A stretch of 53,502 nucleotides of DNA from Terriglobia bacterium (GTDB taxonomy: Bacteria > Acidobacteriota > Terriglobia > JAIQFV01). A model generated the notes under the pieces. It had not been told where the DNA came from and searched no databases. It saw only the letters and a list, made by a program, of their open reading frames with translations. A program made the translations under genes and the position numbers. Where the stretch lies: NCBI GenBank assembly GCA_020073085.1, contig JAIQFV010000024.1, positions 1 to 53,502 of the forward strand, read 5' to 3'. Shown piece by piece: positions 3,643 through 52,584 of this stretch. Position 1 is the first letter of the stretch, and the number at the start of each line of letters is the position of its first letter.

Positions 3643-4059
3643 AAAGCAAGAGCATAGCTTGTACTTCGGCCCCCTGCCGCGCTGCGCCCCAGGATGCCCC
3701 GTCCGATGAGTTCCAGAATGTCGCGGTACGCCGTGTCATGAGACGAGTCCGTCAGCTTCGCCCATTGGGTCGTCGTGAGCTTGCCCTCGAACCCATCGAG
3801 CAGCTTGTTCAGCACCCGACGCTGGCGGTCGTTCAAAGGAGGCTCGCCGACCCGCTCCCAGAACCGCGCTTTGGCCAGCACACCGCGGAGCAGCGTCTCC
3901 GACCCATCGATGGAGCGGCCAAGACAGCCCAGGAACCACACCTGCCACCGCGTAATGTCTGTCCCGCCATTCTGCGTCTCTTCCAGAATGTCGTAATAAT
4001 CGTTGCGCTCCTCCCCGATCTGCGCGGCTGATTGCCATCGACTCTTCTCCTCAACTTCG
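3639..4059 (-). pseudogene. C-terminal remnant of a Fic/DOC family protein
   Basis: The frame encodes only the end of a Fic protein: a SAAQIGEERNDYYDILEETQ helix, the ITRWQVWFLGCLGRSI segment and a C-terminal winged-helix region (LNDRQRRVLNKLLDGFEGKL, then a DILELIGRGIL helix and GGRSTSYALA). Standard Fic proteins of this class have about 370 residues with the catalytic HxFxDGNGR loop ahead of this part. That half is absent, and the frame runs instead into a perfect palindrome at 4062-4102. The open frame from 4100 therefore starts in repeat sequence, and I take it as a truncated gene. An AMP-transferase activity is not possible from what remains. Confidence 0.7.
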
Positions 4060-14112: not shown

Positions 14113-14640
14113 GGGGAGGTGTCAGGTGCCGGGTGTCAGGTGTCAGGGGAGAGGCGGGAGGTTATAGGTAATAGGGAAGGAAGCCGGAAGTCAGAGGCCG
14201 GAAGCCAGAGGCCAGAAGCCGGAAGTCGGAGGCCGGAAGCTGGAAGTCGGAGGGCAGAAGCAAAAGCCCTGTTCTTGACTGTGGTTTCCAGGCCTCCTCT
14301 TTGTTTGGAATTTGGAAATTGTTTGGAATTTGGAGTTTTGACTTGTTTCTTGAACTTTGAACTTGGAACTTTGAACTGGGTTTTTGGACTTTGGACTGAT
14401 TTTTGAACTTGAAACTTTGAACTGTGTTTTTGGACCTTGGACCTTGGACTTTGGACTGATTTTTGAACTTTGAGCTTTGAACTTGAAACTTTGAACTGGG
14501 TTTTTGGACTTTGGACCTTGGACTTTGGACTGATTTTTGAACTTTGAACTTTGAACTTGAAACTCTGAACTGTGTTTTTGGACTTTGGACCTTGGACCTT
14601 GGACTTTGGACTGATTTTTGAACTTTGAACTTTGAACTTT
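14113..14640. repeat. composite heptanucleotide array (GTGTCAG, TAATAGG, RGARGYC, TTTGAAC/CTTGGAC)
   Basis: Starts as GTGTCAG-GTGCCGG-GTGTCAG-GTGTCAG, passes TAATAGG-GAAGGAAGCC, continues as RGARGYC units to about 14262, then a less regular link, then 14336-14640 as TTTGAAC, TTGAAAC, TTTGGAC and TTGGACC units. The CTGAT phase breaks begin at 14396, 14456, 14530 and 14611, spaced 60, 74 and 81, so the spacings differ by 14 and 7. Open frames here (Lys/Ser/Gln-rich on minus, Glu/Ala/Ser-rich on plus) are artefacts of the 7-nt period. The array ends exactly at the ATG of the next gene. Confidence 0.9.
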
Positions 14641-15414: not shown

Positions 15415-15552
15415 GAGATCCGTGCCGCCTAAATCCGCCGACTGCGGATGTGGGGGAACCGTAGAAGAGGGGTGAATCCCCGGCCTTTGAGCCGGGGAAG
15501 AGTACTTTCAAGCTCGAACCCGTCAGCTAACCCCGCCGGCGAATGAAGATTC
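15415..15552 (+). ncRNA. c-di-AMP riboswitch (ydaO-yuaA class)
   Basis: The aptamer shows the class-specific segments in order: GCCGCCTAAATCCG at the 5' side, GGGGGAACCG (15452-15461), GGGGTGAATCCCC (about 15469-15481), a variable hairpin CCCCGGC...GCCGGGG, and the hallmark CGAACCCGTCAGCTAAC (15515-15531) followed by CCCCGCCGGC closing the base. The ydaO RNA class senses cyclic di-AMP and generally shuts off downstream potassium and amino-acid transporters or cell-wall genes when the ligand is bound. It is followed by a terminator at 15568-15589 and a transporter gene, the standard arrangement. Confidence 0.9.
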
Positions 15553-21414: not shown

Positions 21415-22018
21415 GAGGTTTCGGGTGTCAGGCCGAAGGTCCGCCGGCTTTTTGGCGGCTGCCAGGGGGTAGGTAATAGGTGATAGGTAATAGGTGATAG
21501 GTGGTAGGGGAAGGAAGCCAGAAGCCTGAGGCCAGAAGCCAGAAGCCTGAGGCCAGAAGCCAGAAGCCTGAGGCCAGAAGCCAGAGGCCAGAAGCCAGAG
21601 GCCAGAAGCCTGAGGCCAGAAGCCAGACGCCGGAAACCTGAAGTTAGAAATCAGAGCTCGGAAGCCTGAAGCCGGAATTCTTCTGTAGGGGCGCACTGAT
21701 GTGCGCCCTCTTTTAAGTCGGAAGTGAGATAAAAGACAACAGAAGTCAGAAGTCGGTGGTTAGAGGTCAGAAATCGTAGGTTGGAAGTGTGAAGCCGGAA
21801 GCCCGATGTCGGAATTTAGAAATCAGATTCCTGACCGGATAACTAAGAACATAAGAATGAAGAGTCGACCTCTTACTCGGGAGCGAGTAGAACTTCTATC
21901 CGACTTCTGACTTCCGACGTCAGGCTTCTGGTATCCGGCCTCTTGCTTCCGACCTCTGGCGTCGGACTTCCGACTTCCGGTTTCCGGCGTCTGGCTTCTG
22001 GCCTCTGGCTTCGGTTGA
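21415..22018. repeat. composite heptanucleotide arrays in inverted arrangement
   Basis: The plus-orientation part (about 21470-21668) reads TRRTAGG units, the junction TAGGGGAAGGAAGCC, then RGARGCC units. A decayed continuation runs 21715-21832. After a unique piece (about 21833-21892), a minus-orientation array (21893-22016, GACTTCY/GGCYTCY units) follows. The two orientations could pair in RNA. An intrinsic-type hairpin sits within the first part. Frames read through it encode only repeated peptide and are not genes. Confidence 0.88.
21689..21714 (+). terminator. probable intrinsic terminator after the rmlC-like gene
   Basis: GGGCGCAC (21689-21696), loop TGAT, GTGCGCCC (21701-21708), then TCTTTT. 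It lies inside the repeat array, 277 nt after the rmlC-like stop. Confidence 0.55.
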
Positions 22019-39782: not shown

Positions 39783-40160
39783 GGTGGTAGGTGATAGGGA
39801 ATAGGTGGTAGGGGAAGGAAGCCGGAAGCCAGAAGCCAGAGGCCGGAAGCCAGAGGCCGGAAGCCGGAAGCCAGAGGCCGGAAGCCAGAGGCCGGAAGCC
39901 AGAAGCCAGAAGCCGGAAGCCAGAAGCCAGAAGCCGGAAGCCAGAAGCCGGAAGCCAGAAGCCGGAAGCCAGAAGCCGGAAGCCAGAAGTCAGAAGTCAG
40001 AAGTCAGAAGTCGGAAGTCAGAAGTCAGACCTGAAAAAAGGGGAATTGTAGGCTTTAAACTTTGAACCTTGAACTTGGAACTTTGAACCGGTTTTTTGGA
40101 CCTTGGACTTTGGACCTTGGACTTTGGACAGTGTTTACTAAACTCTGAACCTTGAATTGG
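39783..40160. repeat. composite heptanucleotide array, plus orientation
   Basis: Order: GGTGGTA/GGTGATA-type units, junction TAGGGGAAGGAAGCC (about 39810-39825), RGARGCC units then RGARGTC units to about 40030, a linker AGACCTGAAAAAAGGGGAAT, then TTTGAAC/TTGAACC and CTTGGAC units to about 40160. A 55-bp stretch (40022-40076) recurs identically in reverse complement at 49566-49620. Frames through the array encode only repetitive K/P/E/A/S peptide. Confidence 0.92.
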
Positions 40161-46952: not shown

Positions 46953-49364
46953 CTACTTTGCGATCTTTGCGGTTTGCTTTTCCCGGGGGTTGAACTCGAT
47001 CAGCATTTCTTTTGAATAGGGGAGGGGAGTTGGGATCAGAGTCCTGCCGTTTCCACTTGTGACCCGCCGGTCGTGTTCGGGCAGGGCCTTTCGCGCAAAG
47101 TGTTTTTTCAGCCGGTCAAAAGTCCAGCCGAAGTGGATCAACAAGCTTTCCGCGGCCTTGAACAAAAACTCCTCATATTTTTTCTGGTCGTAGGTCACGG
47201 TGCCGTCCAGGTGAGCCAGGGCTTTGGCGCGGTCACAGGGCAGTGCGGCGTCCGCATCCGTGATAATGCACTGAATGCGTTCCCCCGGGCTGAGTGAAAC
47301 TCCGCGGGCCGTCAGTTCCTGGCTCACGATCGCCGTCAGGGAGGCCACCCGGTAATCGAGCGGATCGCGGCTGATCCGGAGGGAGATGGCCAGATCTTCG
47401 GGGTCCATCTGTCCGCCGCGCAGGTCAGCGAGCCGCGCTTCCACCTCCTTCAAAATTTCGGGCACCCGCGTGTCACATTCCTGGCGCGACCGGCAGGGGG
47501 ACCACAACTCCAGCGCGCGCGCTTGAAACTGCTTGATGAACATCGGGGTGTCGGAGCGGCGCAGCTCGATGCCGCGCACTTTCAGTTCGCCCGATTCGAA
47601 CAGGCCAAAATAGCGGTTCGGGACGCTGACCCGGGCGTCGCGGCGCGAGGGCAGGAAGGCCACCCAGCGATACACGCCCTCCAGCGCGATGGGGATGCGG
47701 GTCCGTTCCGTGATGTGGCAGGCCAGTTGTTCGAAATCTTCGGTCGTGGCGCCTGGTTTTTGCACCCACAGGGCATCGGTCAAGGCGTGCAGCATGTGGT
47801 AGCCGGCGCGCTCGGCCACTTCCTTGGCGATCAGCAGGATTTCCCGCCCATACGCGGTAGTGCTTTCGTGCGCCTCGATACGCCCGAAGCGCGCATTCTT
47901 ATAGCCGAGATACCCGAAGCAGGTGACCAGCACCCATTTCAGGGCCGTCTGTTTGCGGTCGTTGATCTCGAAGTCGGCGCGGGTGAGCGCCGCGCGTTTT
48001 TTCTGTTTATAGAGGCGGCGCTTTTCGAGGATGAGGTCGAGCGCTTTGGGCACCAGACCCCGCCGCCGCTGGCACACGCGATAACCCGTCTCCGGAACGC
48101 GCGGGGCGTCCGGGCAACAGGGGCAGTTGATCGTTTCCGGGCTGAGGTTGTAGTCGCGCATGAGCGTGGGATACATGGAGGCAAAATCGAGTTCGGCGAC
48201 CTGATCGTGAAACCCCAGCACCGGTGCGTAGGTCAGGCCGCCCTTGTCGATGGTCAGCAGCTCCAGGCCGTCTTTGAAATCCTCGGCCACATGCTTGCGG
48301 TAGGGAATCAAGTGGTTGTCGCGCAGCGCCACTTCCACCTGCATGGAGGAAATGCATGTCCCTGTGGAGAGGCGGGCCAGCCGTTGCACCGGGATCTTCG
48401 AAAGCCGTGCCAGCTCGAACAATCCTTCCAGCCCGCTTTCGTGGGTGATAAAAGAGTTGCGCCGGTCGATGTGCCAGCGGCCGCGCAGGGTGTGAATGGC
48501 GTCGATGTGCACAATCCGTCCGTAACTGAAATAACTGCGCTCCTTTTGAACGGGGGCCGGCGGCTCGCCCTGGCGGTCGAGTTTCAAGGGGGTCCGCTCC
48601 TGCCGCGCCAGGCGGTACAACTGCGGCAGGATGTAGGAATCCCCCCAATCCGTGAGCACCAGATGCGGGTCGGCGCGCTCGACCAGTTTGTTCAAATGCG
48701 TAATGAGACGATCCCCGTCCAGAACGATCTCGCGATCGTCCATGAGGGCGACCAGGTTTTTTCTGCCCCCATGCGCCGGGTTGTGGGAACAGTTTTCCAG
48801 CTTGAGATGCAGCACCCGCAAGGGCGGAAGCAGGTAATCACACTCGCGCGCGCAATCCTGCAGCTCGAATCCCAGGATGCGGGGAGGCGCCCCCGGCGGC
48901 GCCGCGGGATCCACCACCGCTTCCAGCCCCACCTTCGCCAGGGGAAACAGTTCCGATTCGTAAAAAAATAATTGGGGAAGGGGAATGTCACAATTATAAA
49001 TTTCCACTCCCCTGAAATCGCTGTCGGGGGACCTTCGCGCTTCCTGATCCGGCATGCTGCTTTGACGCAACAGCGCCTGCACGAGCGGGCTGTAGTCGAG
49101 CGGATTGGCCGTCCGCACCGAAACGACCGAAACCCAATCGTTGGTGTAAAACTCGCGCTTTTCGGCGACATCGAACCGGACCGGGATGTGTTGTCGTTCG
49201 ATCCAGCGGACGGCGTTCTTCAGGGTGCGGTCCGTTCCATGCAGGAAAAAGGACGGTTGAAAAGGATAAGAAAAATTCAGGGAGCGGCCGGCGGGGTCAA
49301 TGATCCAAATCGTCAAACCCTGTGGCGTAGGGTAGACATCGAAAATCCAACCGGTGTGTAGCAT
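46953..49364 (-). CDS. family B DNA polymerase with degenerate exonuclease site
   Basis: 803 residues from ATG 49364; the frame upstream is repeat sequence. Motif A is ELDFASMYPTLM (391-402, Asp393); a Cys cluster CPCC...C follows at 414-431. Motif B is KQTALKWVLVTCFGYLGY (471-488). Motif C is HALTDALWV (526-534): consensus YxDTDS has become ALTDAL, losing the first Asp but keeping the second (Asp530), the usual metal ligand. In the exonuclease region Exo I reads LHLKLEN (185-191), with Lys in place of the catalytic Asp, so proofreading is probably lost. The whole is close in length to Pol II (783) and resembles PolB2-type proteins. Low-fidelity or translesion synthesis is a reasonable inference. 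The partner genes lie upstream at 50356 and 50644. Confidence 0.88.
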   Translation of the reverse strand: MLHTGWIFDVYPTPQGLTIWIIDPAGRSLNFSYPFQPSFFLHGTDRTLKNAVRWIERQHIPVRFDVAEKREFYTNDWVSVVSVRTANPLDYSPLVQALLRQSSMPDQEARRSPDSDFRGVEIYNCDIPLPQLFFYESELFPLAKVGLEAVVDPAAPPGAPPRILGFELQDCARECDYLLPPLRVLHLKLENCSHNPAHGGRKNLVALMDDREIVLDGDRLITHLNKLVERADPHLVLTDWGDSYILPQLYRLARQERTPLKLDRQGEPPAPVQKERSYFSYGRIVHIDAIHTLRGRWHIDRRNSFITHESGLEGLFELARLSKIPVQRLARLSTGTCISSMQVEVALRDNHLIPYRKHVAEDFKDGLELLTIDKGGLTYAPVLGFHDQVAELDFASMYPTLMRDYNLSPETINCPCCPDAPRVPETGYRVCQRRRGLVPKALDLILEKRRLYKQKKRAALTRADFEINDRKQTALKWVLVTCFGYLGYKNARFGRIEAHESTTAYGREILLIAKEVAERAGYHMLHALTDALWVQKPGATTEDFEQLACHITERTRIPIALEGVYRWVAFLPSRRDARVSVPNRYFGLFESGELKVRGIELRRSDTPMFIKQFQARALELWSPCRSRQECDTRVPEILKEVEARLADLRGGQMDPEDLAISLRISRDPLDYRVASLTAIVSQELTARGVSLSPGERIQCIITDADAALPCDRAKALAHLDGTVTYDQKKYEEFLFKAAESLLIHFGWTFDRLKKHFARKALPEHDRRVTSGNGRTLIPTPLPYSKEMLIEFNPREKQTAKIAK

Positions 49365-49376
49365 GGGAATACAGTC

Positions 49377-50355
49377 CCAAGTCCAAAGTCCAAGGTCCAA
49401 AAGAACCAGTTCAAAGTTCCAAGTTCAAGGTTCAAAGTTTAAAAACACAGTCCAAAGTCCAAGGTCCAAAGTCCAAAAGAAGCAGTTCAAAGTTCCAAGT
49501 TCAAGGTTCAAAGTTTAAAAACACAGTCCAAGGTCCAAAGTCCAAAAGAAGCAGTTCAAAGTTTCAAGTTCAAGGTTCAAAGTTTAAAGCCTACAATTCC
49601 CCTTTTTTCAGGTCTGACTTCTGACTTCTGACTTCCGACCTCTGGCCTCCGGCCTCTGGCTTCCGGCTTCTGGCTTCCGGCCTCTGACTTCCGGCCTCTG
49701 GCCTCCGGCCTCTGGCTTCCGGCCTCTGGCTTCCGGCCTCTGGCCTCCGGCCTCTGGCTTCCGGCCTCTGGCTTCCGGCCTCTGACTTCTGACTTCTGAC
49801 TTCCGACCTCTGGCTTCCGGCTTCTGGTTTCCGGCCTCTGGCTTCCGGCCTCTGGTTTCCGGCTTCTGGTTTCCGGCCTCTGGTTTCCGGCTTCTGGTTT
49901 CCGGCCTCTGACTTCTGACTTCTGACTTCCGACCTCTGGCCTCCGGCTTCTGGTTTCCGGCCTCTGGCTTCCGGCTTCTGGTTTCCGGCCTCTGGCTTCC
50001 GGCCTCTGGTTTCCGGCTTCTGGTTTCCGGCCTCTGACTTCTGACTTCCGACTTCTGACTTCCGACCTCTGGCCTCCGGCCTCTGGCCTCCGGCCTCTGG
50101 CCTCCGGCCTCTGGCCTCCGGCTTCTGGTTTCCGGCCTCTGGTTTCCGGCCTCTGGTTTCCGGCTTCTGGTTTCCGGCCTCTGACTTCTGACTTCTGACT
50201 TCCGACCTCTGGCCTCCGGCCTCTGGTTTCCGGCTTCTGGTTTCCGGCCTCTGGCTTCCGGCCTCTGGCTTCCGGCTTCCTTCCCCTATCACCTATGACC
50301 TACCACCTACCCCCTGACACCTGACACCCGACACCCGACACCCGGCACCTAACAC
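49377..50355. repeat. largest composite heptanucleotide array, minus orientation, within the polymerase cassette
   Basis: In plus-strand order: TCCAAAG/TCCAAGG and TTCAAAG units to about 49590, the shared linker (49566-49620), about 95 units of GRCYTCY (49613-50282), the junction GGCTTCCTTCCCCTA, then CTATCAC/CTACCAC and CTGACAC/CCGACAC units to the end of the small gene at 50356. A recurrent block TCTGACTTCTGACTT starts at 49613, 49781, 49907, 50033 and 50180. The spacings are 168, 126, 126 and 147, all multiples of 7, so phase is kept over 570 bp. A minus-strand frame of 233 codons here encodes only repetitive K/P/E/A/S peptide. Confidence 0.93.
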
Positions 50356-50619
50356 CTATTCCCTAAAACCTTCCTCTTTCTGTTCCAATTCCAGCCGGCG
50401 GATGCGCTTCATCATTTCAATCAGCATGGCGATCAGGACCGCCTCCATGGGTGCCGGTGTGGAGGCATAGGCCATGGGTGCCGTGTGGAATCGAGCGAGC
50501 GCAAAGAGCTCGTCGAGCACTTTTTGATCTTCCTGGCGCAAGGCGCGGCGAAATTTCGACCAGTCATCGTCCTGGATTTTTTGCAGAAGCTGGGTGGAGG
50601 TAATGACTGTTCGACCCAT
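50356..50619 (-). CDS. small protein of the polymerase cassette
   Basis: 87 residues from ATG 50619 (AGGTGATT upstream); ATG 50628 is an alternative. It begins GRTVITSTQLLQKIQDDDW and FRRALRQEDQKVLDELFALA, a helical segment, then PMEAVLIAMLIEMMKRIRRLELEQ, an amphipathic helix. No family recognised. It lies 24 nt after the RecA-like gene and ahead of the polymerase gene, so a shared transcript is likely. It may be a connector or regulator of the other two. Its stop abuts the heptanucleotide array. Confidence 0.6.
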   Translation of the reverse strand: MGRTVITSTQLLQKIQDDDWSKFRRALRQEDQKVLDELFALARFHTAPMAYASTPAPMEAVLIAMLIEMMKRIRRLELEQKEEGFRE

Positions 50620-50643
50620 GGGAATCACCTGTAAAATATGGCC

Positions 50644-51429
50644 CTATTGAAACAGTCTCAGCTGGCGCGAATAGCGCATGGGCCCAACGGGCGCGGCGTT
50701 CAAGGTCCAGGTCTGTTTGAATTCCTCGGGCTGTTCCAGGCGCAGGACCATCTCCATCGGGGTGTGCTGTTCGCAAGCCAGCCGGAAGATCGCGTCCCGT
50801 TTGAGCGCTTCGAGGTATTGGGAACGCTGTTTCACCGCCGGCTGAGGACAGGCCAGCAACACCTTCAGGCCGCGCCGGGCGAGGTCACGTAACGTGGACT
50901 CAAATTTCTTGAACAGTTTATTGGCTTCGAACAACGGCACGTTTTCGTCGTAGAAAGTGGCCAGAGGGTCGAGCGCCACCACCAGCGGGGAATGATATTT
51001 CTCTGCCGTCTTTTGCACGCGTTCTGCCAGGGACACCATCTGGTGGCACGTGAAGGCGCGCGAAATTTTCATCAGCCGGAGAAACTCCTCGGGCCGGCGG
51101 GCGAAGTGCCGGGCCATGCGTGTGTACAGATACAGGTTGAAGCCATTGTTTCCATCCACGAGGATCACGGGGGTTCGCGTGATCAACGGGCGCGACAATA
51201 TTTTCTGCGTCAACTCCAGGACATAGGCCTCGCCATAAATCAGGTAAAGCCCCTCCTGCGGTTTCATGGACTCCCAGGCCACATACAATTGCCCCAGCGA
51301 AAACCGGGGGGCCCCAAGCGAGGGCCTCAGCGCGGGGAGCGGAACGGCAGCCGGGTCGCCGGCGCGAGCGGGGGCGATTGGAACCGCGCTCGCCACCGAA
51401 CCGGATTGAGATTTTTCGAGAGCGTTCAT
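50644..51429 (-). CDS. RecA/Rad55-fold protein lacking a P-loop
   Basis: 261 residues from ATG 51429, with GGAAAG upstream; a start at 51555 would run through the promoter. After a Pro/Ala-rich N-terminus the core follows RecA strand order: GLYLIYGEAYVLELTQKIL where the Walker A loop GxxxxGKT should be (no Gly-Lys-Thr/Ser), TPVILVDGNNGFNLYLY, a helix FLRLMKISRAFTCHQMVSLA, then SPLVVALDPLATFYDEN with the Walker B strand and GLKVLLACPQP. ATP binding in the usual way is unlikely. RecA-like proteins without a working P-loop accompany error-prone polymerases (ImuA beside ImuB-DnaE2). Here the partner is a family B polymerase, so a comparable scaffold role is inferred. Confidence 0.72.
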   Translation of the reverse strand: MNALEKSQSGSVASAVPIAPARAGDPAAVPLPALRPSLGAPRFSLGQLYVAWESMKPQEGLYLIYGEAYVLELTQKILSRPLITRTPVILVDGNNGFNLYLYTRMARHFARRPEEFLRLMKISRAFTCHQMVSLAERVQKTAEKYHSPLVVALDPLATFYDENVPLFEANKLFKKFESTLRDLARRGLKVLLACPQPAVKQRSQYLEALKRDAIFRLACEQHTPMEMVLRLEQPEEFKQTWTLNAAPVGPMRYSRQLRLFQ

Positions 51430-51441
51430 GGGTTCTTTCCT

Positions 51442-51486
51442 TTCGCCATGCAGAAGCAGTATAGGCGAACAAAAAGCGAAAGTCAA
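51442..51486 (-). promoter_or_regulatory. promoter with candidate operator for the RecA-like/polymerase cassette
   Basis: On the minus strand TTGACT (complement of 51481-51486), a 17-nt spacer, and TATACT (complement of 51458-51463). An inverted repeat TTCGCC (51442-51447) and GGCGAA (51464-51469) brackets the -10 box and could be an operator. It does not match a LexA box that I know. Confidence 0.68.
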
Positions 51487-51507
51487 GGGAAGGTCACGAT
51501 TATTTAC

Positions 51508-51536
51508 TTGACACAGGGTATGGGTTGTGCTACCTT
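51508..51536 (+). promoter_or_regulatory. possible divergent promoter, plus strand
   Basis: TTGACA (51508-51513), a 17-nt spacer and TACCTT (51531-51536). It points towards the transposase, 158 nt ahead, and is back to back with the RecA-like promoter. It may have served a gene now displaced by the insertion sequence. Confidence 0.45.
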
Positions 51537-51551
51537 CTAGGCGTGATGATA

Positions 51552-51695
51552 TCAAACCCTATGCTTACCAACACTTTCAGCCCTCTTGAGTTCTTGTTGA
51601 ATGTAATTGATTGCTTCTTTGGGGAAAAGTTTATTCAAAATACTTCTCGCGCTCTTCTCTTTCTTAGATGCAGTTTTGCCTTTAGGAGATGCCAT
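51552..51695 (-). CDS. possible 47-residue Lys-rich ORF (uncertain)
   Basis: ATG on the minus strand at 51695 to TGA at 51552. The peptide starts MASPKGKTASKKEKSARSIL and contains FPKEAINYIQQELKRA, with natural-looking composition. GAGG lies 11 nt upstream on that strand. It is fully antisense to the transposase leader, and its start codon overlaps the transposase start, which argues against both being used. No family recognised. Confidence 0.25.
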   Translation of the reverse strand: MASPKGKTASKKEKSARSILNKLFPKEAINYIQQELKRAESVGKHRV

Positions 51696-52584
51696 GAATG
51701 ACAACCTCACTGAGATGATTGAGAAATACGGAAGCGAGGATAAGTGCCGCGCTCACCTTGAGCAATTGCGCTGGCCTAATGGCGTGGAATGCCCTCGATG
51801 CAAGGCTACCCAGGTATCGCACATACATGCCAGACATCAATATGACTGCGACAAGTGCCGCTATCAATTCTCTGTGCTCACTGGCACGGGTTTTAGTGAT
51901 ACTCACTTGCCGATCTGGAAATGGTTTCTTGCCGCCTACCTCATTTGCGAATCCCGCAAGGGTGTGTCTGCTAATCAGATTAAGCGAGTGCTGGGGATTA
52001 GCTATAAGTCGGCTTGGTTTCTCTGCCATCGAATCAGAAACGCCATGAAAGAGACCAACCCCGCAAAGCTCACAGGAACAGTTGAGATTGATGAAACCTA
52101 TATCGGTGGTGAGCTTCCCCATAGCGAGGGCGGTATGTATGATAACAAGTCCATCGTTCTCGGTATGCGCCAAAGGCAAGGCAATCTCCGAATGGTTAAA
52201 ATCCCCAACGCCAAAGCCCGAACACTTCGCAGGAGCATAGTTCCCTATATCAGCCGCGACGTTGAGCGAGTCATTACCGATGAACGGTCCGCTTACATCC
52301 CGGCCATTGGCCCACTCTATCCTAGAAAGCTTAAGAGAATTCGCCATGCAGAGAAGTACGTTGATGGAGATATCCACACCAATACGGTTGAAAATGCGTT
52401 CTCATTGCTCAAGCGTGCCGCCTTTGGGACGTACCACAAACTCAGCGACAAGCACTTGCAATCCTACCTCGATGAAATGACTTTCCGATTTAATCGCCGC
52501 GAAGACCCCAACCTTTTTTCTGAAACATTGAGCCAACTTTTGACAACCAAAAATCTCACCTTCGAAGAATTAACAGCAGACTGA
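51694..52584 (+). mobile_element. IS1595-type transposase (ISXO2-like DDE domain)
   Basis: 296 residues from ATG 51694, with TTAGGAGA upstream. An N-terminal zinc ribbon (CPRCKATQ... CDKCRYQFSVLTGT) is followed by VLGISYKSAWFLCHRIRNAM and the ISXO2-like catalytic domain: EIDETYIGG (first Asp), VITDERSAYIPAI (second Asp) and HTNTVENAFSLLKR with FGTYHKLSDKHLQSYL, where the third acidic position appears as Glu or Asn-type (DDN/E group). Length and motifs fit a complete IS1595-family enzyme. Lower GC than neighbours. Terminal inverted repeats and an 8-bp target duplication could not be identified, so the IS borders are undefined. Confidence 0.9.

Follow-up and report, generated by a model that had tools for sequence, protein, structure and literature searches.

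A mutasome composed of PolB2, PPB2 and iRadA was described in archaea and bacteria by Timinskas et al. 2025 (PMC11791011), where the complex itself, a heteropentamer with a PPB2 trimer, is a structure prediction. According to its main text, the bacterial genes follow the order iRadA-PPB2-PolB2, PPB2 carries an MGRT arm, PolB2 has an inactive exonuclease and an altered DxD, iRadA is devoid of the ATPase residues and of the N-terminal domain, and clamp motifs are present in a fraction of the members. Bacterial PolB2 homologues had been noted already in 2008 (PMC2527604), and Dpo2, the archaeal PolB2 of Sulfolobus islandicus, is reported to be induced by damage and to account alone for targeted mutagenesis (PMC7390963). 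Here, a stretch of 53,502 nucleotides (the window) from a Terriglobia bacterium of the Acidobacteriota (assembly GCA_020073085.1, contig JAIQFV010000024.1) was analysed, in which three minus-strand frames lie behind one promoter in the order iRadA, PPB2 and PolB2. This locus is very probably an SOS-controlled PolB2 mutasome operon, and the genes, their motifs, the iRadA fold, the conserved linkage and the sharing of the operator with lexA were observed directly. Moreover, every defining feature of the PolB2 mutasome that was examined agrees with the window trio. The features of the locus are the following:

50644..51429, minus strand: iRadA, 261 aa, likely ATG at 51429; RadA/Rad51 fold in the model, Walker A and RadA N-terminal domain absent
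50650..50664, minus strand: QLRLF, canonical beta-clamp binding motif, read from the C-terminus of iRadA, which ends QLRLFQ
50356..50619, minus strand: PPB2, 87 aa, likely ATG at 50619; N-terminal MGRT
46953..49364, minus strand: PolB2, family B DNA polymerase, 803 aa, likely ATG at 49364
47775..47786, minus strand: altered motif C, ALTD, with the first Asp of DxD lost, from the alignment with homologues; a PolB2 hallmark in PMC11791011 and PMC2527604
51458..51486, minus strand: sigma-70-type promoter TTGACT-17-TATACT, conserved upstream of related operons
51462..51480, minus strand: predicted LexA operator TTCGC-N6-TTCGCCTA, within the promoter spacer and -10 box

The polymerase matched Pfam DNA_pol_B with an E value of 4.8e-28, and its motifs were read from an alignment of the window protein with 11 homologues (12 sequences in total). 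The Exo I site was LKLE (residue 187) where DIE is expected, bearing out the damaged exonuclease motif noted in a preliminary description of this DNA, and motif C was altered as well, reading HALTD (residues 526-530, of which ALTD spans 527-530) instead of YGDTD. Two aspartates were retained, that of motif A (ELDF, D393) and the second one of motif C (D530). An identity with E. coli Pol II was considered and rejected, as neither the intact proofreading exonuclease nor the YGDTD of that enzyme is found in window PolB2. All NCBIfam models of type B polymerases that matched PolB2 did so under their cut-offs; the model NF004416 matched in five of 14 control genomes, E. coli among them, always under the cut-off, and therefore cannot tell PolB2 apart from other polymerases of family B. 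The structure model of PolB2, built on 12 sequences, reached a predicted local distance difference test (pLDDT) score of 74.3 and a predicted template modelling (pTM) score of 0.56.

By its sequence, window PolB2 is divergent. The PolB2 of Terriglobia bacterium isolate SRVP_39 (L037) is 94% identical to it. A tree was built of 84 PolB2 proteins; in it, the proteins of the window and of its sister species were separated from the remaining 21 acidobacterial ones, with Nitrospinota nearest by path. Forcing all 23 acidobacterial proteins together was marginally rejected by the approximately unbiased test (p 0.04), which was run on a quick tree and on a hypothesis posed after the tree had been seen, and a separate origin of window PolB2 is only marginally supported. 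The same tree included two IMG/VR entries filed as viral (L117 and L118), which encode PolB2, one of them also PPB2, and branch among Chloroflexota; these are mutasomes carried by viruses or else bacterial DNA filed in the wrong place.

Sequence searches were nearly blank for iRadA: phmmer against the PDB sequences gave a single chance-level match (E 0.33), Pfam gave none above cut-off, and NCBIfam gave only weak RadA matches, far under cut-off (E 0.0015). Comparison of folds was therefore needed. The AlphaFold2 model of iRadA, built on 65 sequences (pLDDT 81.3, pTM 0.75), matched Dmc1, Rad51 and RadA, with a best Foldseek E value of 1e-11 and a best VIA-align Z of 20.9 (root mean square deviation 2.4 over 191 residues; RadA 2zub, Z 20.4). 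The modelled iRadA is thus a protein of RadA/Rad51 fold. The match runs only from residue 44 of iRadA, with 2zub aligned from its residue 92, and therefore the RadA N-terminal domain is absent. A regular-expression search found no Walker A motif in iRadA. The preliminary description had spoken of a RecA-fold protein without P-loop and had left an unrelated fold to be checked by structure prediction; the model speaks for the former. In sequence, window iRadA was 21-27% identical to ten usual acidobacterial iRadA proteins aligned and 43-47% identical to a lone iRadA encoded in a genome of a related genus (G002), and the QLRLF ending is common to the window, the sister species and G002. QLxLF is the canonical clamp motif, and clamp motifs are described as commoner in bacterial iRadA than in PolB2 (PMC11791011). 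As regards PPB2, MGRT was invariant in the 11 homologues aligned and literally present in 67 of the 78 matches to PPB2 among the loci from named genomes described below; the remaining 11 mostly started with VGRT or LGRT, had MGRN or were truncated.

With window iRadA as the sole query, matches were found in 20 of 101 genomes, its own included; one of these, in G011 (E 4.5e-4), is probably false, as the iRadA profile gives none in that genome. The open frame of the G011 match presumably resembles NadD. Of 22 short loci searched with tblastn (two being the window itself), 18 had the polymerase and 16 the small gene. Furthermore, when named genomes were scanned with the polymerase alignment, at least 592 candidate stretches were obtained, at least 570 of them coding for relatives. 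The 80 best loci were retained; they came from Acidobacteriota, Nitrospirota, Nitrospinota, Chloroflexota, Bacteroidota/Ignavibacteriota and others. The trio was complete and in the same order in 72 of these best 80 loci. Among the eight incomplete loci, seven had a PolB2 frame starting at most 441 bases from the contig start, and the eighth (L047) had no detectable iRadA despite 4 kb available. In 151 genomes of the class, profile searches found PolB2 in 30 (E cut-off 1e-30), PPB2 in 28 (0.001) and iRadA in 35 (1e-5). All 28 genomes with PPB2 also held PolB2 and iRadA, no genome among the 151 having PPB2 without PolB2, and the two genomes with PolB2 only (G022 and G143) showed polymerase fragments near contig ends. 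The three genes are thus real and conserved, that of the 87-residue protein starting 24 nt past the iRadA stop, and the survey of gene neighbourhoods proposed in the preliminary description showed them to occur together. In one acidobacterial metagenome-assembled genome (L089:7094-7996), iRadA and PPB2 matches fell within a single open frame; an iRadA-PPB2 fusion type is reported in PMC11791011.

The promoter was the only sigma-70-type match in 49000-51700, and its weight comes from its conservation and not from the match itself, because shuffled sequences averaged 0.6 matches; the strong promoter of the preliminary description is thus present and conserved upstream of related operons, although the match alone is weak. 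A sequence resembling TTGACTTTCGCTTTTTATTCGCCTATANT was common to the upstream regions of many acidobacterial operons. In the 5.79-Mb genome, TTCGC-N6-TTCGCCTA occurred in two copies, one at this promoter and one ahead of lexA, at a distance of 61 or 106 nt according to which start codon is taken. The reversed control gave none, and this lexA was the only gene found with the LexA DNA-binding domain (PF01726). In the sister species, one strict copy precedes lexA and the other the PolB2 operon, and G002 has three, before lexA, the PolB2 operon and the lone iRadA. Overall, of the seven strict copies in these three genomes, three precede lexA, three an operon led by iRadA and one a lone iRadA. We take the repeat at 51462-51480 as a predicted LexA operator.

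A RecA-fold protein without P-loop beside a polymerase, together with SOS-type control, could also suggest a cassette like that of ImuA, ImuB and DnaE2, with ImuA as the RecA-like part. Such a reading is hardly credible, since the polymerase of the trio is of family B, the small protein bears the PPB2 motif and the trio has no Y-family gene; the only Y-family match of the genome (PF00817) starts about 130 bp past the lexA stop, on another contig. Membership in that system is refuted by this gene content, although DnaE2 was not searched for. The preliminary description had used the same system as an analogy, which is apt as to the mutasome kind but looser than the published parallels with Pol V and Pol zeta. 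It was also right in proposing a mutasome-type system of a family B polymerase and a RecA-like protein, which matches the trio of PMC11791011; its statement that the system had not been described as such is corrected by the same paper, where the exact trio is described.

Genes for iRadA were preceded by a looser repeat, TTCG[CT]-N6-TTCG[CT], in 18 of 20 acidobacterial loci, one of two Nitrospinota loci and none of 47 others, with a mononucleotide shuffle background of at most 0.05 per group (one acidobacterial locus was too short for this survey, and 10 loci without iRadA or enough upstream sequence were set aside). Among other LexA box types, GAAC-N4-GTTC appeared in three of 14 Chloroflexota loci and GTTC-N7-GTTC in one of 19 Bacteroidota/Ignavibacteriota loci, the remaining known types listed being found upstream of no iRadA in the loci surveyed. 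The direct repeat GTTC-N7-GTTC is the alphaproteobacterial-type LexA box; its exact form was upstream of iRadA in none of the 20 acidobacterial loci, and the window repeat, TTCGC-N6-TTCGCCTA, has the same 11-base period. A LexA box of Acidobacterium capsulatum was reportedly described by Mazon et al. in 2006, under a title that links it to the alphaproteobacterial lexA, and this title was all that literature searches on acidobacterial LexA boxes turned up. A LexA box in Acidobacteriota is therefore not new in itself. The main text of PMC11791011 reports lexA genes to be enriched near bacterial PolB2 loci and, supplements aside, mentions no operator, promoter or Acidobacteria. LexA-operator control of a PolB2 mutasome was not found in print.

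Several points weigh against an SOS-controlled PolB2 mutasome. The NCBIfam model PRK05761.1-2 scored 385.5 on PolB2, its curated cut-off being 516, and the 84-protein tree took in no archaeal PolB2 reference. The case for LexA control is built from sequence, and the strict pattern gave 228 matches in the 151 genomes compared to 55 in the reversed control, and therefore a fair share of its copies must be chance. Moreover, 23 of 52 site loci had no identifiable SOS-type gene downstream (one a DNA methylase, 22 unassigned or chance-like), and the operons of other phyla mostly lack the repeat (present in 1 of 49). These figures would suit a mutasome expressed constitutively or governed by a different damage regulator, in which case the repeat shared with lexA would be coincidental or bound by another protein. 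This alternative is quite improbable given the restriction of the repeat to lexA and the window promoter in the whole genome, its looser form upstream of iRadA in nearly all acidobacterial loci, and the genes downstream of the other site loci, namely lexA (12 loci), iRadA (5), Y-family polymerases (7), DinB-superfamily genes (4) and a uracil-DNA glycosylase (1). The 52 site loci comprised 32 supplied by the search tool and 20 picked by hand, two entries being the same site, and their downstream genes were assigned by Pfam in 10 and by BLAST similarity in the rest.

A further point on the same side lies within the operon, where PPB2 and PolB2 are neighbours, yet separated by an insert that could uncouple PolB2 from its two partners:

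49365..50355, no strand: heptamer-type tandem repeat arrays in the PPB2-PolB2 gap, 991 bp

In this gap, 70% of the bases match the base seven positions on, compared to 26% in the PolB2 gene. A TTG start of PolB2 at 49400 was discarded in favour of the ATG at 49364 because the residues gained would be repeat DNA. As measured from the positions of profile matches, the gap is about 321 bp in the sister species, its approximate median over 78 loci is 0, and PPB2 and PolB2 overlap by ~97-103 bp in 16 of 21 acidobacterial loci. The unusual length of the insert, and the existence of the related lone iRadA in G002, could point to a decaying operon, in which repeat expansion has moved PolB2 away from its partners as a stage in the loss of the system. 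This seems unlikely, as the three frames are intact, their proteins are 90-95% identical to those of the sister species, and the promoter and the operator are also intact.

In the SOS-controlled PolB2 mutasome that we favour, LexA would occupy the direct-repeat operator inside the promoter, and its removal upon DNA damage would lead to the production of iRadA, PPB2 and PolB2. PolB2, having no proofreading, would extend primers beyond lesions; iRadA, with no ATPase, would dock onto PolB2 like a RadA protomer and, by means of the QLRLF at its own C-terminus, deliver it to the beta clamp; and one MGRT arm of a PPB2 trimer would be placed between PolB2, iRadA and DNA. The outcome would be an error-prone extension past lesions by PolB2. 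For this organism, we infer LexA binding and repression, as well as clamp recruitment by iRadA. The putative complex, translesion role and mutagenesis are carried over by analogy from PMC11791011, where the complex is predicted, and from PMC7390963.

Genes for iRadA also occur apart from the polymerase; seven of the 151 genomes matched the iRadA profile but not that of PolB2. In G002, the lone iRadA (L024:6527-7341; G002:C2) has a full LexA-type promoter/operator and the C-terminal QLRLF, with no PPB2 or PolB2 beside it, and the genome carries a complete PolB2 operon elsewhere. A second lone iRadA (L174:3954-4754; G107:C72) has a TTCG[CT]-N6-TTCG[CT] element at 3956, and the PolB2 and PPB2 profiles gave no match in its 95%-complete genome. 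In six genomes of one further family of the class (f3), a short iRadA-like frame overlaps or abuts the 3' end of lexA:

L032:6897-7526
L175:2812-3198
L176:764-1282
L177:360-857
L178:2815-3291
L179:2482-2964

No Walker A was seen by eye in these frames, which could encode a SulA-like or iRadA-like SOS protein. From the solitary genes of G002 and G107 and the lexA-linked frames, it may tentatively be asked whether Terriglobia iRadA is also a free-standing SOS effector besides a PolB2 subunit, a proposal that we regard as doubtful. In the absence of PolB2, such solitary proteins may work with the clamp or with another polymerase, and their genes offer a way to ask about the role of iRadA without its polymerase.

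Elsewhere in the window, heptamer-type arrays recur at 14179-14640, 21470-22014 and 39818-40129, in addition to the intra-operon array (49371-50357), with units GGAAGCC, TTGAACT and TTGGACC, and one frame stays open for 233 codons through the intra-operon array, probably by chance. A transposase-like gene, presumably of family IS1595, adjoins the operon promoter (51607-52584, plus strand). An RNA family search of the window gave no match at the mutasome locus; a c-di-AMP riboswitch was found at 15416-15552 on the plus strand (Rfam RF00379, 74.5 bits).

Taken as an SOS-controlled PolB2 mutasome, the locus adds a divergent lineage of Acidobacteriota to the range of a little-tested, recently named family B mutasome, supplies a concrete operator as a possible point of control by LexA, and makes mutagenesis induced by damage testable by a simple reporter in a group of soil bacteria. 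Compared to the PolB2 mutasome as described in the text of PMC11791011, the window trio shares the three components, the gene order, the MGRT, the dead exonuclease and the altered DxD, and its iRadA likewise has a clamp motif and no P-loop or N-terminal domain. It differs in that its PolB2 lies outside the main acidobacterial clade in our tree, in the repeat array within the operon and in the explicit prediction of a LexA operator. Dpo2 is likewise of the PolB2 type and is damage-inducible (PMC7390963), which is so far a prediction for the window system; the latter, unlike Dpo2, is bacterial, and LexA-type control would be expected for it. Finally, as with E. coli Pol V (UmuC-UmuD'2-RecA), a parallel drawn in PMC11791011, the trio joins a polymerase to a protein of the RecA family and to a small, oligomeric protein that provides an arm, whereas Pol V has a Y-family polymerase, an active RecA and an unrelated small subunit.

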